Shown here: positions 24,026 through 39,732 of the stretch, one piece after another
Layout of the letters: the number at the start of each line of letters is the position of its first letter
Numbering within the stretch: position 1 is the stretch's first letter
NCBI GenBank assembly: GCA_022072125.1
Contig: JAJVIH010000005.1
Location: 1-55,513 of the forward strand
DNA length: 55,513 nucleotides
DNA from: Myxococcota bacterium
GTDB lineage: Bacteria > Myxococcota > JAJVIH01
Direction of reading: 5' to 3'
Made by a program: the position numbers and the translations under genes
Notes under the pieces: model-generated
Database searches by the model: none
Told to the model about the DNA's origin: nothing
The model's input: only the letters and a program-made list of their open reading frames with translations

Positions 24026-25240
24026 TCACGGCCCCACGGGCGGGCAAAGGCGATCCAGATCGGGGCGGGTATGGCACTTCAGGCAGGCTGTCTGGTTGCG
24101 GTTGCGCATGAATCCGCAGTTGCGATCAAACCCCGCCGGATGCGGATTGACAAAGCCGCGCGATCCCCTGCCCTTTCCGCCATGGCAGGCGATACAATCC
24201 TTCTCGGCATGACAGGAAACGCAGGTGTTCATGTTGCGCTGGGCTTCCAGAACATGGGCGTTTTTCTCCAGGCCCGGCGATGACGACGCCCAATCAGACG
24301 GGTGGATTTTCAACGCCCGCGGCGTCAGTTCTCCCAAGGCCGCCACGCCCGTGCGCTGGTGGCAGGTGATGCAAAAACCCTGCTGGCGGTGGCAGGCCTG
24401 GCAGTCCATGGCGTTCTTGCGGGCCTCCACCGCATGCTGGCTGATGTAATCCGCCGGATGAATGCCCTGGGGTTTCATCATTCCGGCATGGCATTTGAGG
24501 CAATCATTGGGCTGGTGGCAGTTCTGGCAATAGGCCTCGCCGGTTTTCGCCACGGGACCATGGCTTCGTTCGAATCCGGGCGCATGGGCGTCCCCCCGCA
24601 ACACCCCGGAGGGCAATAGCTGTCCATTGGGATAGCTCGTCTTCACCTTTCCCGCCGGAGTGGCGAGATGGCATGCGGTGCAGCGCTGGGTGGCTGCTTG
24701 TCCGTCGTGACAGGCCAGGCACGAGGTCATCTTCGGCAGATGGGCCCGGGTGGCGAGGTGGGTTGACTCCACCCCCGCATGGCACTGGGAGCAGTTCATT
24801 CCCTTGTCGAGATGCAGTTTGTGGCTGAAATGCAGGTGGGGCGGCGGGAAAAACACCGTGTCCGCCGGCCCGGCGCCGGTGATCTCCCCCGCGTGACACA
24901 ACCGGCATTCCCGGGGGTTGACGGCGCCGCCGGCGGCGCGCGGATGTTCCGCCGGAATCGCGTGGCATTTGGCGCAAGCCTGGGCGGCGCGCGGAATCAG
25001 GTTATCGCTGGAACGGGTGCTGGAGGCGGCGGCATGGCAGTCCTGGCATTTCATCCCCGCCTTGCCGAGGTGAATCCGGTGGCTGAAATTCAGCGCGGCG
25101 CTTCGCGGCGGGAAGATGATCTCCGAGGGCGAATTCCGGTTTTCGGGCAGGCCGCGCCACCCCAACGCGGCGGCGGCCGCCAGACTGGTTGCGCCCGCGC
25201 AGGCGAGGATCACCCAGCGCGGCATGGTCCGGAACTTCAT
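24026..25240 (-). CDS. 13-haem c-type cytochrome
   Basis: 404 residues with a signal anchor (WVILACAGATSLAAAAALG), then 13 CxxCH haem-attachment motifs: CQDCH, CAKCH, CRLCH, CSQCH, CLACH, CTACH, CQNCH, CLKCH, CQACH, CITCH, CVSCH, CIACH and CLKCH. Extra His residues such as HRIHL and HKLHL could be distal haem ligands. It should sit in the periplasm, possibly tethered to the inner membrane. Its ATG overlaps the stop of the barrel gene (ATGA). With that barrel and the haem-motif lipoprotein upstream it resembles a porin-cytochrome conduit. No close named family was recognised beyond multihaem cytochromes. Confidence 0.92.
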   Translation of the reverse strand: MKFRTMPRWVILACAGATSLAAAAALGWRGLPENRNSPSEIIFPPRSAALNFSHRIHLGKAGMKCQDCHAAASSTRSSDNLIPRAAQACAKCHAIPAEHPRAAGGAVNPRECRLCHAGEITGAGPADTVFFPPPHLHFSHKLHLDKGMNCSQCHAGVESTHLATRAHLPKMTSCLACHDGQAATQRCTACHLATPAGKVKTSYPNGQLLPSGVLRGDAHAPGFERSHGPVAKTGEAYCQNCHQPNDCLKCHAGMMKPQGIHPADYISQHAVEARKNAMDCQACHRQQGFCITCHQRTGVAALGELTPRALKIHPSDWASSSPGLEKNAHVLEAQRNMNTCVSCHAEKDCIACHGGKGRGSRGFVNPHPAGFDRNCGFMRNRNQTACLKCHTRPDLDRLCPPVGP

Positions 25241-26601
25241 CGTCCCTCCCCAAAAAACAGTTCCGCCACCAGGAAAACCCGGGTGCGGAAGCGGGTCAGG
25301 TTGTTGAAATCCTGTTCCCCCAGCACCTTGAAGCGAACCCAGCCGTCCGGGCGGTAATGCACCGCCAGATTGACGCCCAGCCCGCTGATCGCGCGCGACA
25401 GGCCGCCGTCGCGGCTGGACCCGTAGTGGTTGACGCCGCCTTCCAGCCCAAACCAGTCATCCATGAACCAGTAATATCCTTCAGCGGTGAACAGCCGCTG
25501 ATGGCCGCCAGAGCCCGTGCGCCCCGAACCGCCCACACTGCCCCCCCAATGTTCCGGCCTCCACCCCACCTCGCCCAGCAAACCGTGATCCCATTCGTTG
25601 GAAAAACTGTCCTGATCCGGCAAATCGGGTTCGTTGATGTCCCGCTGCTGGAAGCGGCGCAGGGCGTATCCCCCGCGGACATGCCAATCGCCCCGGGACC
25701 AGGCGAGCCGCGCGCGCGCTTCATCGTAGGGCTGGGTGTTGAAGTAGGCGAAGATCGAATCCGCGGAGAACAGCGGATAATGATGGAACACTTCTCCCGT
25801 GGCCGCCCACTGGCGATCCGGGGTCCAGCGGGCGCCCGCGAGCAGCCGGTCCATCAACCGGTAGGAAAAATTCCAGACGGCGTCCGCGTACACGCGCAGG
25901 GTTTCCGGGGCCGCTTCCAGATTGACGCCGGCGCCGCCCCGTTCCTCGACAATCGAACCATCAAAGACCCGCCGCCAACCCGACCGGACCTGAATCCCCT
26001 TGCCGCCCAGGTAATTGATGGCCGCGCCGCTGGTCACCTGCACCCGGCCGTTGGACTGGACGCCATCCGGCTCCCCGAGACCAAATCCAAATCTTCCGGT
26101 TTTGGCGGCGAACCCGGACCAGGCTTCCAGTTCAAAACCCATGGCGGACCGCCCGCTGACGGTCAATCCATCGAAGACATGGAACCCCAGCACATCCGTG
26201 CGGATTTGGCGTCCGAGCGTCCAGCCCAGGAAGCCAAACCATTCCTCGCCTTTCAGATGCAGGAACATCAGATCAAATTCGTTGTGCTGGAGTTCAGGCA
26301 ACAGGGCGCGCTCCAATGATATAACCCCGAACTCGGCGGCGTAACGGAATCCGGATTCCAGCCGGAGGGAAAAATCCCGGCCTGTCATGTCATCCACCGC
26401 CAGATTGACGGTCTGGATGGCCCGCCGCCGCGACAACACGTCGGCCGCGTCGCCGGAGAACGCCGCCCCCGCGGTGGCGATTTGGTCAATGATTCCCGTG
26501 GTTTCCGTATGCAGGTAATAACGGGTGGCGTGGGCGGGCGGCGGCCATCCGGCCAGCATGGCGGCGATCAACAGCAATGGCGCCCGGAAACGGATGGTCA
26601 C
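25237..26601 (-). CDS. Predicted outer-membrane beta-barrel protein
   Basis: 454 residues with a cleavable signal peptide (LLLIAAMLAGWPPPAHA, ending AHA). The mature part has alternating hydrophobic strands rich in aromatic residues and Gly, and it ends with a strand reading VFLVAELFFGEGR. That pattern fits an outer-membrane porin of roughly 16-20 strands. It lies between the lipoprotein and the cytochrome genes and overlaps both by 4 bp (ATGA), so the three are made together. By analogy with MtrB/PCC-type porins it could hold the cytochrome in the outer membrane. That function is inferred from context, not from sequence similarity. Confidence 0.8.
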   Translation of the reverse strand: MTIRFRAPLLLIAAMLAGWPPPAHATRYYLHTETTGIIDQIATAGAAFSGDAADVLSRRRAIQTVNLAVDDMTGRDFSLRLESGFRYAAEFGVISLERALLPELQHNEFDLMFLHLKGEEWFGFLGWTLGRQIRTDVLGFHVFDGLTVSGRSAMGFELEAWSGFAAKTGRFGFGLGEPDGVQSNGRVQVTSGAAINYLGGKGIQVRSGWRRVFDGSIVEERGGAGVNLEAAPETLRVYADAVWNFSYRLMDRLLAGARWTPDRQWAATGEVFHHYPLFSADSIFAYFNTQPYDEARARLAWSRGDWHVRGGYALRRFQQRDINEPDLPDQDSFSNEWDHGLLGEVGWRPEHWGGSVGGSGRTGSGGHQRLFTAEGYYWFMDDWFGLEGGVNHYGSSRDGGLSRAISGLGVNLAVHYRPDGWVRFKVLGEQDFNNLTRFRTRVFLVAELFFGEGR

Positions 26602-27362
26602 GGGACCGCCGTCATTTCCGCAATCCAGCGGAAGATCAGAATCTGGTGTTCCGTGGATAACGGGGCCGCGGGCGCGGGGGGCATGATGGGGTCCGCGCCA
26701 ATGACCGAGAGGTAGATGGCGCTTTCCCCAGGTTTTCCCGGCTGGATCAACGGTTTACCCGTGGACGAGGGCTGTCCAATCAGATTTCCGGGCGCACCGG
26801 GTCCATCGAGTCTCAAGCCCCGGCTCACCACATCTCCGCCATGACAGCCGGAAGCGTTACACCCCTGGGCGAAGATCGGGGCGATATCACGGGCATAGTC
26901 CGCCGGAACGGGTCTGGCCGGCGGCGGCGGACGTCCTTTCACCCGGAATTTCCAGTCTGTCTCATGGGGGAGCCGGTTGCCCGCCAGGTCCGTGACATTG
27001 GCGATGACGGCCCGGTATTCCGCCTGCTCGTCCTCCAACTGGCCGGGGAAAGGACGGAACACCAGGGACAAGTCCGAAGGGCGCCACAAAACCTCCCCGG
27101 AGGCGGCGATCTCCCCGGGGCCGTGAACCGAAAACGTGGTGGAGCTGACCGAACGGGGGTCCAGGGCCTCGCTGAACCATGCGGTGACCCAGGTGCCGGT
27201 CGCGGCGCTGGTTTCATCCCCGGCCGGGTTGGTCCGGACGATACGGGGAGGCTCCCGGTCGAACTGGAAAGGAGGGTCCGCTCCGGGTTCGGCGCAACCG
27301 GAAAGGATGGCCAGGGCCAGCCCCATGAGCAGGGCCCGCCGGAAGGGGCGTTCGATTTTCAC
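26598..27362 (-). CDS. Lipoprotein with Ig-like domain and a C-terminal CX4CH haem-type motif
   Basis: 254 residues from a GTG start. The open frame runs further upstream, but the lipobox signal peptide (RRALLMGLALAILSGC, Cys23) fixes the start near 27362; a Shine-Dalgarno site is not evident. A Big_5/SbsA-like Ig domain follows (PRIVRTNPAGDETSAATGTWVTAWF... type). The C-terminal part, GCNASGCHGG and then IYLSVIG, resembles the cytochrome-c-like modules of large environmental bacteria, with CX4CH in place of CxxCH. A single haem is plausible. The gene is first in the cytochrome operon. Confidence 0.8.
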   Translation of the reverse strand: MKIERPFRRALLMGLALAILSGCAEPGADPPFQFDREPPRIVRTNPAGDETSAATGTWVTAWFSEALDPRSVSSTTFSVHGPGEIAASGEVLWRPSDLSLVFRPFPGQLEDEQAEYRAVIANVTDLAGNRLPHETDWKFRVKGRPPPPARPVPADYARDIAPIFAQGCNASGCHGGDVVSRGLRLDGPGAPGNLIGQPSSTGKPLIQPGKPGESAIYLSVIGADPIMPPAPAAPLSTEHQILIFRWIAEMTAVP

Positions 27363-27468: not shown

Positions 27469-29781
27469 TTGGATACACAGGCGGCGGCGCCGCTTTCGGG
27501 ACTGGGAATGGCTGAAACCACAGACATATCGGGTATGCAGGCCGGGGCCGCGGGCGGCCTGTCGGATAACGTCAATTTCAAGCAGATATTCACTGTCGTT
27601 CGCAAGCGGCTGGGCTTTGTGCTGGTGTTCATCATTCTGGCGACCACGGCCACCGCGATTTACACCTGGAAACAGCCGCGTATCTACCGCGCCCAGGGCA
27701 CCATGATTCTGGACTCCGCCACGCCCAAGGTGTTCGGCGATCAGGTTCAATCGGTGGTGGACGAATCCGGCGGCAAGTTTTACACCAACAAGGAATTTTT
27801 CAACACCCAGTTTGAAATCATCAAAAGCCGCCCCCTCGCGGAGCGGGTGGTGGAGCGCCTGGGGCTGAACGCGGACCTGGACTTCATCTATCTGGGCCAG
27901 ATTCCTTCCGACAGCCGGAACAAAATCCACAATGTCCAGAAAACCGCCGCGTCTCTCATCAAGCGGATTGAGGTCAAACTGGTCAAGGACACCAAGGTGG
28001 CGCAGGTCATTGTGGAGGATCGCGATCCCAAGCGCGCCGCGCTGATCGCCAACACCATCGTGGATACGTACCTGACCTATAACCTGGAAAGCCGCCTGGC
28101 CATCACCCGCGAGGCCTCGGACTGGCTGGCCGAACAAATCGCCGACATGAAGGTCCGCCTCTCCAACAGCGAAATGGACCTCTTCAACTTCAAGCGGGAC
28201 AACAATATTCTGACCGTCGCCCTGGAAGATACCGACAAACTGGCGGCGGAAGGGCTGAACCAGCTTCACACCCGCTACATGACCCAGAAGGCGGATCGCA
28301 TCACCATCGAGCAGACGGTCAAGAATATCCGGGAAACCATCAAAAACTCCGGGCGGCTGGAAATTTTTGGCGAGGCGGCGAGCCAAAGCGACGTGGTCAG
28401 GGAATTGCGCGCCCGGGAAGCCGCCATCGTGGAAGAGCTGACCGATCTGGAATCCCAGTACGGGGATTTGCACCCCAAGGTGAAATCCACCCGGGATCGG
28501 CTCAAATTTGTCCGGGACTCCCTCGACAAGGAACTCCGGTCCATTCTCACCAACCTGGAGCTGAAGCTCAAAACCACCATTGAAATCGAGGAAAAATTCC
28601 TGCAGTTGTACAACAATGAACGGGAACGGGTGTTTGAAGCCAGCAAAAAAGAAATTGAATTCAACCGCCTGAAGCGCGAGGCCGAGAACAACAGCAACCT
28701 GTACAACATGCTGCTCAAGCGTGCGAAGGAAACCCACTTGGCGGGCCTGCTCAACACCAATAACGTCCGCCGCCTCGAACCGGCCCTGGCGCCCACCAGG
28801 GCTTCCAAGCCGAATGTTCAACTCAATCTCGCCCTGGGCTTTTTCGCCGGGCTGATGCTGGGTCTGATCGGCGCCTTCACCTGGGAAACCCTCGACAGCA
28901 CCATCAAGGGCGTGCAGGACATCGAGGCCATGAACCTGTCGGTCATCGGCGTGATCCCGCTGGTCAAGAGCGGACGCCGCGACCAGATCCGCAACCCCGA
29001 TCTGGACCTCTATATCCATGACAATCCCAAGAGCACGGTGGCGGAATTCTGCCGATCCATCCGCACCAATCTGCTCTTCATGTCGCCTGACAAGCCGATG
29101 CGGCGGCTGCTGATCACCAGTTCCAACCCGCGTGAAGGGAAAACCGTCACCTCCTGCTACATGGGCATCACCATGGCGCAGTCGGGCGGACGCACCCTGC
29201 TGATTGACTGCGACATGCGCCGTCCGTCGCTGCACAAGGCGTTTGGCCTGACCCGTGTCACCCAGGGGTTGAGCAACCTGATCCTGGGCGACTGCAAACT
29301 CGACGACGTGGTCATCAAAAGCCGGGTGGACAACCTGTGGATCCTCCCGGTCGGATCCATCCCGCCCAACCCCGCCGAACTGCTGCACACGGATTCCTTC
29401 CTGCGCATCATTGACGAGGCCTGCAACAAGTTTGACCGCGTGATCATTGACTCCCCACCGCTGGGACCGGTCGCCGACTCGCTGGTCATCGCCACCCACA
29501 TGGATGGCGTGGTGGTGGTGGTTCAGCCCGAAAAGACCTCGCGCGACCTGACCAAGCGGGTCGTCTCCGGGCTTCGCGATGTCAAGGCCAATATCCTGGG
29601 CGTGATTTTCAACCAAGTGGATATCGAGCGCCGTCAGTACGGATACCGCTACTACTATGGCGGCCAGTACTATTATTACTACGCTGATCGCGAGGACCGG
29701 GAAGGCGGCAAGGATGGCAAGGGCAAGGACTCCCCGCCGCCCGGTTCCGGTGGGCAGGATGACAAGCGCGCCGCGGCCTGA
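27469..29781 (+). CDS. Wzc-like polysaccharide co-polymerase / BY-kinase
   Basis: 770 residues. This inner-membrane tyrosine autokinase controls chain length and export of an exo- or capsular polysaccharide. TM1 is near 48-67, followed by a periplasmic Wzz/GNVR-type region with long coiled coils, and TM2 near 452-470. The cytoplasmic kinase has a Walker A (SNPREGKTVTS, about 550-560), Walker A' (LLIDCDMRRP) and Walker B (VIIDSPP). A C-terminal Tyr cluster (YGYRYYYGGQYYYYYAD, about 723-741) is the usual autophosphorylation site. The TTG at 27469 has AGGGG 6 nt upstream; the ATG at 27508 is the alternative. No other polysaccharide genes are in the window, so the partner Wza is elsewhere. Confidence 0.92.
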   Translation: MDTQAAAPLSGLGMAETTDISGMQAGAAGGLSDNVNFKQIFTVVRKRLGFVLVFIILATTATAIYTWKQPRIYRAQGTMILDSATPKVFGDQVQSVVDESGGKFYTNKEFFNTQFEIIKSRPLAERVVERLGLNADLDFIYLGQIPSDSRNKIHNVQKTAASLIKRIEVKLVKDTKVAQVIVEDRDPKRAALIANTIVDTYLTYNLESRLAITREASDWLAEQIADMKVRLSNSEMDLFNFKRDNNILTVALEDTDKLAAEGLNQLHTRYMTQKADRITIEQTVKNIRETIKNSGRLEIFGEAASQSDVVRELRAREAAIVEELTDLESQYGDLHPKVKSTRDRLKFVRDSLDKELRSILTNLELKLKTTIEIEEKFLQLYNNERERVFEASKKEIEFNRLKREAENNSNLYNMLLKRAKETHLAGLLNTNNVRRLEPALAPTRASKPNVQLNLALGFFAGLMLGLIGAFTWETLDSTIKGVQDIEAMNLSVIGVIPLVKSGRRDQIRNPDLDLYIHDNPKSTVAEFCRSIRTNLLFMSPDKPMRRLLITSSNPREGKTVTSCYMGITMAQSGGRTLLIDCDMRRPSLHKAFGLTRVTQGLSNLILGDCKLDDVVIKSRVDNLWILPVGSIPPNPAELLHTDSFLRIIDEACNKFDRVIIDSPPLGPVADSLVIATHMDGVVVVVQPEKTSRDLTKRVVSGLRDVKANILGVIFNQVDIERRQYGYRYYYGGQYYYYYADREDREGGKDGKGKDSPPPGSGGQDDKRAAA

Positions 29782-38988: not shown

Positions 38989-39651
38989 TCAACCAGGGAT
39001 TGCGGCGTCTCCGCTTGTGGCCGCACCGCCATCGCCGGGAACCGCGGCGTCGCTGTCCGTGGCCGCGCCGCCATCCCCCGGAATCGCGGCGTCGCTGCCG
39101 GTGGCGGGGCCGCCATCGGAACCGGTGTCATCCGTGGTTCCGGTGTCGCCGGGCGCGGCGCCATCGCCGGCTCCGGTATCCAGGGCGCCCGCGTCGGCGA
39201 TTCCACTGCCGTCACAGAATTTGCCGTCCACACGGCCGGTCCGGAACCTTTTTTCGATATTGGCCAGAAGCGCATCCCCCTTTTTGGATTTCAACTCCGT
39301 GGTCATTTTCAGGATGTGAATCGTGCATTCCGCCATGGGCAGGTTCTTTGGCGTCAGCACCACGGTTTTGGTCGTGTCGCTGTATTGGGCGGAAAGGATT
39401 TCCACCGGCGAGCGCGTTCCGCCGGCGAAGCTCTCCAGAACCAAACCCTTGCCGAAGGAAGCGGAGTCCATTTCCACGCCGAACACAATGACGATCGGGC
39501 TTGACGGATCGGCGTTGGTGGAGTTCCCGCTTGGCGACGTATCCAGAATGGTGATGACGGGAGGCGGCTCGGAAATCAGGACATTGGGTTTTTCGCAGGC
39601 CGCCAACAGCGCACCCGCCGCTGCAAGCGCGGCGATCAAAACTCGAAACAT
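38989..39651 (-). CDS. Lipoprotein with Ig-like domain and Ala/Gly/Asp-rich tail
   Basis: 220 residues. The signal peptide MFRVLIAALAAAGALLAAC gives a lipobox Cys19. A Big_5/SbsA-like Ig domain follows (ITILDTSPSGNSTNADPSSP then IVIVFGVEMD), similar in style to that of the cytochrome-operon lipoprotein. From about residue 150 the protein is low complexity (GDTGTTDDTGSDGG), including three copies of a 14-residue repeat. GGAAGGTG lies 6 nt before the ATG at 39651, which fixes the start. It is divergent from another Asp/Ala-rich lipoprotein gene. A surface or periplasmic role is likely; nothing more can be said. Confidence 0.85.
   Translation of the reverse strand: MFRVLIAALAAAGALLAACEKPNVLISEPPPVITILDTSPSGNSTNADPSSPIVIVFGVEMDSASFGKGLVLESFAGGTRSPVEILSAQYSDTTKTVVLTPKNLPMAECTIHILKMTTELKSKKGDALLANIEKRFRTGRVDGKFCDGSGIADAGALDTGAGDGAAPGDTGTTDDTGSDGGPATGSDAAIPGDGGAATDSDAAVPGDGGAATSGDAAIPG
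39002..39127 (-). repeat. 42-bp tandem repeat (three copies) in the lipoprotein gene
   Basis: Units begin with GCGGCGTC at 39002, 39044 and 39086, an exact 42-bp period encoding GDGGAATDSDAAVP-like 14-mers at the C-terminus. Such an array can gain or lose units by slippage without breaking the frame. Confidence 0.8.
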
Positions 39652-39732
39652 CCGGTTCACCTTCCTGTGAGGGGCGAGACCCCGTTCACCCCGGAGTACA
39701 TGATTCCCCAGCCTCTGCTGCATATTGATGTC

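Follow-up and report, generated by a model that had tools for sequence, protein, structure and literature searches.

The three overlapping genes on the minus strand between positions 27362 and 24026 of the window (the whole stretch of 55,513 nucleotides analyzed here, from a Myxococcota bacterium) raise the question of whether they encode a wire that carries electrons across the outer membrane. A first-pass annotation had proposed such a porin-cytochrome conduit. The three open reading frames that it had delimited were all found on the minus strand (Table 1), in the order lipoprotein, barrel with a signal peptide and cytochrome with 13 CxxCH motifs. Of the two ATGA overlaps that it had reported, the one between the barrel and the cytochrome genes holds, but the one between the lipoprotein and the barrel genes is a GTGA. 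Overlap or abutment of the barrel and cytochrome genes recurs in the relatives. The operon is an isolated three-gene unit: its downstream neighbor is a convergent beta-aspartyl peptidase gene and its upstream neighbor a divergent gene (27469-29781, plus strand) for a Wzc-type polysaccharide chain-length determinant/tyrosine autokinase, so that the promoter region may be common to the latter and the operon. The host genome holds a single copy each of the barrel, the cytochrome and the lipoprotein.

Table 1 Positions in the window of the operon genes and of their main sequence features
Feature	Coordinates	Strand	Basis
13-haem c-type cytochrome, 404 aa, c7-type haem pairs in N-terminal half	24026..25240	-	sequence, profile searches
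ATGA stop/start overlap, barrel to cytochrome	25237..25240	-	sequence
22-strand outer-membrane beta-barrel (predicted), 454 aa including signal peptide	25237..26601	-	sequence, AlphaFold, Foldseek
GTGA stop/start overlap, lipoprotein to barrel	26598..26601	-	sequence
Outer-membrane-type lipoprotein, 254 aa, Big_5 Ig-like and PSCyt1-like domain with CX4CH	26598..27362	-	sequence, domain search
CX4CH haem motif CNASGCH, lipoprotein residues 168-174	26841..26861	-	sequence
Lipobox LAILSGC, Cys23	27294..27314	-	sequence

The count of 13 CxxCH motifs in the cytochrome is exact. When its sequence was shuffled 20,000 times, the motif appeared 0.14 times on average and three times at most, so that its 13 occurrences lie far above the chance expectation. 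The profiles that match this protein are those of c7-type and related haem-pair families. Across 30 homologues, 9 of the 13 haem sites are invariant and the other four are conserved in 90% or more of the sequences; among the histidines outside the motifs, nine are invariant in the 30 sequences and two more are conserved at 97%. These invariant free histidines fit bis-histidine haems devoted to electron transfer rather than a catalyst. The AlphaFold model of the cytochrome is poor (pLDDT 67, pTM 0.51) and contains an N-terminal hydrophobic helix (residues 8-30); Foldseek searches with this low-confidence model returned only partial ActA-like matches, which were set aside. The helix had been taken for a single N-terminal anchor. 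Yet, since close homologues begin with clear signal peptides (for example, L040 MHRLHRNVLGVLALLLAATGVAWA-A), it is more likely to be a cleavable signal peptide. The Anaeromyxobacter homologue (L052) bears a lipobox.

Searches of Pfam, NCBIfam and the PDB with the sequence of the middle protein gave nothing above noise. Its AlphaFold model, based on an alignment with 33 homologues, is a barrel of 22 strands (mean pLDDT 83.7), and its Foldseek matches are outer-membrane porins and ushers, the best of them being ordinary porins. The first-pass annotation had staked its reading on a barrel of 16-20 strands: the predicted fold agrees, the number of strands does not. Porins of the porin-cytochrome complexes (Pcc) are reported to have 18-22 strands, a range that includes the 22 predicted here, and MtrB types about 28 (PMC4245776).

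The lipoprotein gene starts with a GTG codon at 27362. The lipobox and the CNASGCH motif of its product bear out its earlier description as a haem-motif lipoprotein with CX4CH; atypical CX3-4CH motifs also occur in the outer cytochromes of Pcc (PMC4245776). Residues 35-140 form a Big_5 Ig-like domain (E = 1.5e-12) and the C-terminal part matches the Planctomycete cytochrome domain PSCyt1 (E = 4e-4), slightly below the curated Pfam cut-off. Most f4 and Myxococcaceae loci also contain a gene for an Ig-like lipoprotein, which is about 140-165 aa long and lacks a haem motif. The gene order differs, as the lipoprotein comes first in the window operon and after the cytochrome in most relatives. A profile of the relatives' Ig-like lipoproteins from which the window protein was left out finds it at 2.6e-17; the window lipoprotein is thus most likely the same partner, shifted to the front and with a haem domain added. 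This profile also finds another Ig-like lipoprotein of the window (3e-4). A second Big_5-type lipoprotein of the window (38989-39723, minus strand) carries a long, low-complexity tail of near-repeats rich in Gly, Asp and Ala (AAIPGDGGAATDSD). Four Polyangiaceae-type loci encode, directly 3' of the cytochrome, a longer lipoprotein that has a CX4CH domain, and a profile of these proteins finds the window lipoprotein at 3.9e-6 among all the ORFs examined. These related lipoproteins rule out that the lipoprotein haem is unique to the window genome.

The distribution of the genes was surveyed in 195 Myxococcota genomes, a cytochrome within 600 bases of the barrel being counted as adjacent. The 13-haem cytochrome adjoins the barrel in 48 of the 50 strong barrel matches, and both genes are kept on separate contigs in the remaining two (G126 and G163); the homologues without a cytochrome partner that would have spoken against a conduit are thus not the rule. 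The barrels of these pairs share only 18-26% identity, yet their abutting one-to-one pairing is strict. One genome (G124) has the cytochrome and the lipoprotein and no strong barrel match. A profile search across assemblies, based on a five-row alignment, returned named matches from Myxococcota or Deltaproteobacteria-labelled assemblies, including species of Myxococcus, Pyxidicoccus, Archangium and Hyalangium. The exceptions were one Proteobacteria-labelled assembly and one distant match in Geobacteraceae, a nine-haem cytochrome without a barrel (L166). Remnants of the operon were found in two Myxococcus-like genomes: in one of them, the start of the barrel is fused in frame to the end of the lipoprotein and the whole cytochrome has been deleted (L128, 4667-5491), and in the other only barrel fragments are left (L127, 4633-4977). 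The operon is dispensable in both genomes.

The surroundings of the genes vary among the relatives. In three Myxococcaceae-family genomes, the cytochrome and the lipoprotein lie away from the barrel, which stands alone elsewhere in two of them (L115, L118, L125, L126, L133). In f4 genomes (L037, L039, L041), a small response-regulator gene and a pilT-like one for twitching motility lie near the operon, and tatA-like genes directly precede the barrel in L038 and L046. The closest relative (G004) has a second pair of barrel and 13-haem cytochrome (L048, 5158-11030), which adjoins a 701-aa protein with 30 CxxCH motifs and two further proteins, one with 5 haems and one, a lipoprotein, with 6; this conduit cluster is far richer in haem than the window operon.

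Related multihaem cytochromes are almost absent from the rest of the host genome. The sole one detected elsewhere is an ActA/QrcA-like pentahaem protein, whose gene (L054, 8894-9550, contig 9 of G000) lies beside that of a 1009-aa protein; the pair is probably an alternative complex III, and one may speculate that the pentahaem protein could be a quinol-side electron donor. A scan of the genome with PF09699 gave no match; as it missed even the operon cytochrome, it is uninformative on the cytochromes of this genome.

The predicted barrel fold, the 13 haem motifs, the conserved free histidines and the co-conservation across the phylum support the original proposal, and the operon probably codes for a conduit of the porin-cytochrome kind that takes electrons across the outer membrane. 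The recurring Ig-like lipoprotein, its CX4CH counterparts in Polyangiaceae, the operon remnants and the Anaeromyxobacter homologue point in the same direction, and the best reading is that of a Myxococcota subtype with the Ig-like lipoprotein as its third subunit. In such a conduit, the 22-strand barrel would be the sheath in the outer membrane. The cytochrome would be exported by means of a signal peptide and extend out of the periplasm into the barrel or all the way through it, and its haems, mostly bis-histidine, would form a chain. The lipoprotein would join them at the outer membrane as the third subunit and cap the barrel, or dock on it, with its Ig-like domain; in the window lineage, its lone CX4CH haem would lengthen the wire and would likely be the point where electrons leave or enter. 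In this scheme we infer the formation of the complex, the insertion of the cytochrome into the barrel, the face on which the lipoprotein lies, the direction of the electrons and their substrate. Several observations weigh against a conduit. The poor model of the cytochrome leaves its shape and its fit into the barrel tentative. The lipoprotein of the relatives is mostly haem-free, and no gene for an extracellular multihaem cytochrome lies beside the operon in most of their loci. Unlike typical metal reducers, the host genome is poor in related multihaem cytochromes. Finally, many carriers are Myxococcus-type soil bacteria, which are not known for extracellular respiration.

Other scenarios may explain some of these features. 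Myxococcus-type genera are aerobes, and the many carriers that belong to them could use oxygen as the final acceptor if the same barrel-cytochrome wire worked inwards and supplied the periplasm with electrons that a donor outside the cell, such as Fe(II), gives up. The lack of an outer multihaem cytochrome in most relatives would be congruent with this direction, as MtoAB/PioAB and PCC4 (PMC5566968) and the two-gene Anaeromyxobacter Pcc (PMC4245776) also do without one. Nevertheless, Anaeromyxobacter, which holds a homologous pair, reduces Fe(III) and its Pcc cytochrome is up under Mn(IV) reduction (PMC4245776), and an inward conduit seems unlikely. Alternatively, an ordinary solute porin and a periplasmic cytochrome acting as carrier or store could belong to one pathway with no wire through the membrane. 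Ordinary porins are indeed the best structural matches of the barrel, the cytochrome looks soluble and the lipoprotein mostly lacks haem. Yet, strict abutting one-to-one pairing at so low a barrel identity is the pattern of porin-cytochrome complexes (PMC4245776) and no transporter or enzyme gene recurs beside the pair in the mapped loci, which makes a solute porin quite unlikely. Anchoring of the cytochrome in the inner membrane, where it would connect the outer-membrane lipoprotein with the quinol pool and the barrel would only hold that lipoprotein, appears very improbable: the helix at residues 8-30 and the resemblance of the N-terminal half to the membrane-bound, quinol-linked cytochromes ActA/QrcA would agree with it, but homologues begin with obvious cleavable signal peptides, or with a lipobox in the case of Anaeromyxobacter, and the ActA resemblance is limited to common c7-type haem pairs.

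Wires across the outer membrane are known chiefly from metal-respiring bacteria. The chances appear evenly balanced that Myxococcota, including the social bacteria of the Myxococcus type, have a conserved conduit type of their own. It would combine the 22-strand barrel and the 13-haem wire with an Ig-like lipoprotein cap, which lacks haem in most lineages but bears a single CX4CH haem in Polyangiaceae and the window lineage. If they do have such a type, redox exchange with the cell surface would be a widespread and overlooked trait of these bacteria. The outer subunit seems to gain or lose haem between lineages; the haem may have arisen twice or been lost elsewhere. As the set is deeply conserved and single-copy in Myxococcota, including cultured species of Myxococcus, Pyxidicoccus, Archangium and Hyalangium, electron exchange with the surroundings is directly testable. 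No description of such a porin-cytochrome set in Myxococcota was found in the open-access literature. A published screen (PMC11475568) set a minimum of 15 haems for a whole cluster and would therefore miss sets of the window type, which total 13-14.

Among the known systems, MtrCAB, PioAB and MtoAB likewise use a barrel and a periplasmic multihaem cytochrome as a wire. In contrast to the window proteins, with 22 predicted strands and 13 haem motifs, MtrB-type barrels have about 26-28 strands and MtrA has ten haems. The barrel profile found no MtrB chain in the PDB, and the only match to MtrCAB was a weak generic one to a chain of entry 6r2q. TIGR03508, for ten-haem MtrA/DmsE cytochromes, gave the cytochrome 26 bits against a cut-off of 192. 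MtrB/MtrA membership is ruled out by sequence, strand number and haem number, in keeping with the first-pass view that this is not the standard MtrCAB set; of the MtrB and PCC families that it had named for comparison, MtrB is unrelated by sequence and the two-gene Anaeromyxobacter Pcc is related.

By their description, the Geobacter conduits OmbB-OmaB-OmcB, ExtABCD and ExtEFG share with the window set the three parts, a barrel of about 18-22 strands, a multihaem periplasmic cytochrome (12 haems each in ExtA and ExtG) and an outer lipoprotein that is the most variable part (PMC6148476). Their outer lipoproteins have 5-12 haems, whereas the window one has a single CX4CH on an Ig-like scaffold and most of its relatives none. 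In the ExtHIJKL conduit cluster, too, the outer lipoprotein is described as something other than a multihaem cytochrome, but it is rhodanese-like and the cytochrome there is pentahaem (PMC6148476).

The barrel of the window adjoins, in overlapping genes, a cytochrome within the 5-14 haems of periplasmic Pcc cytochromes. The outer-membrane lipoprotein cytochrome of most Pcc clusters may have a partial counterpart in the window lipoprotein, with its lipobox, one CX4CH and sub-threshold PSCyt1-like match, although most relatives lack the haem. The cytochrome and barrel profiles, both built without L052, find the Anaeromyxobacter pair, at 1.8e-40 for the cytochrome (345 aa, 12 CxxCH) and at 1e-29 over the full length of the barrel. 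Its genome (G035) is presumably that of Anaeromyxobacter dehalogenans strain 2CP-1, with which the gene properties agree. The pair would then match the two-gene Pcc with a cytochrome of 338-344 aa and 12-14 haems (Shi et al. 2014, PMC4245776). As in the window, a barrel is directly followed there by a periplasmic cytochrome of 12-14 haems. Unlike in the window, the L052 cytochrome has a lipobox and no Ig-like lipoprotein gene was seen there; cytochrome identity is only about 30%, and the window family is a group apart whose members are far closer to each other. Since both profiles find the Anaeromyxobacter pair, the window set is, judging from its sequences, a distant and distinct member of the porin-cytochrome kind and not an Mtr system.
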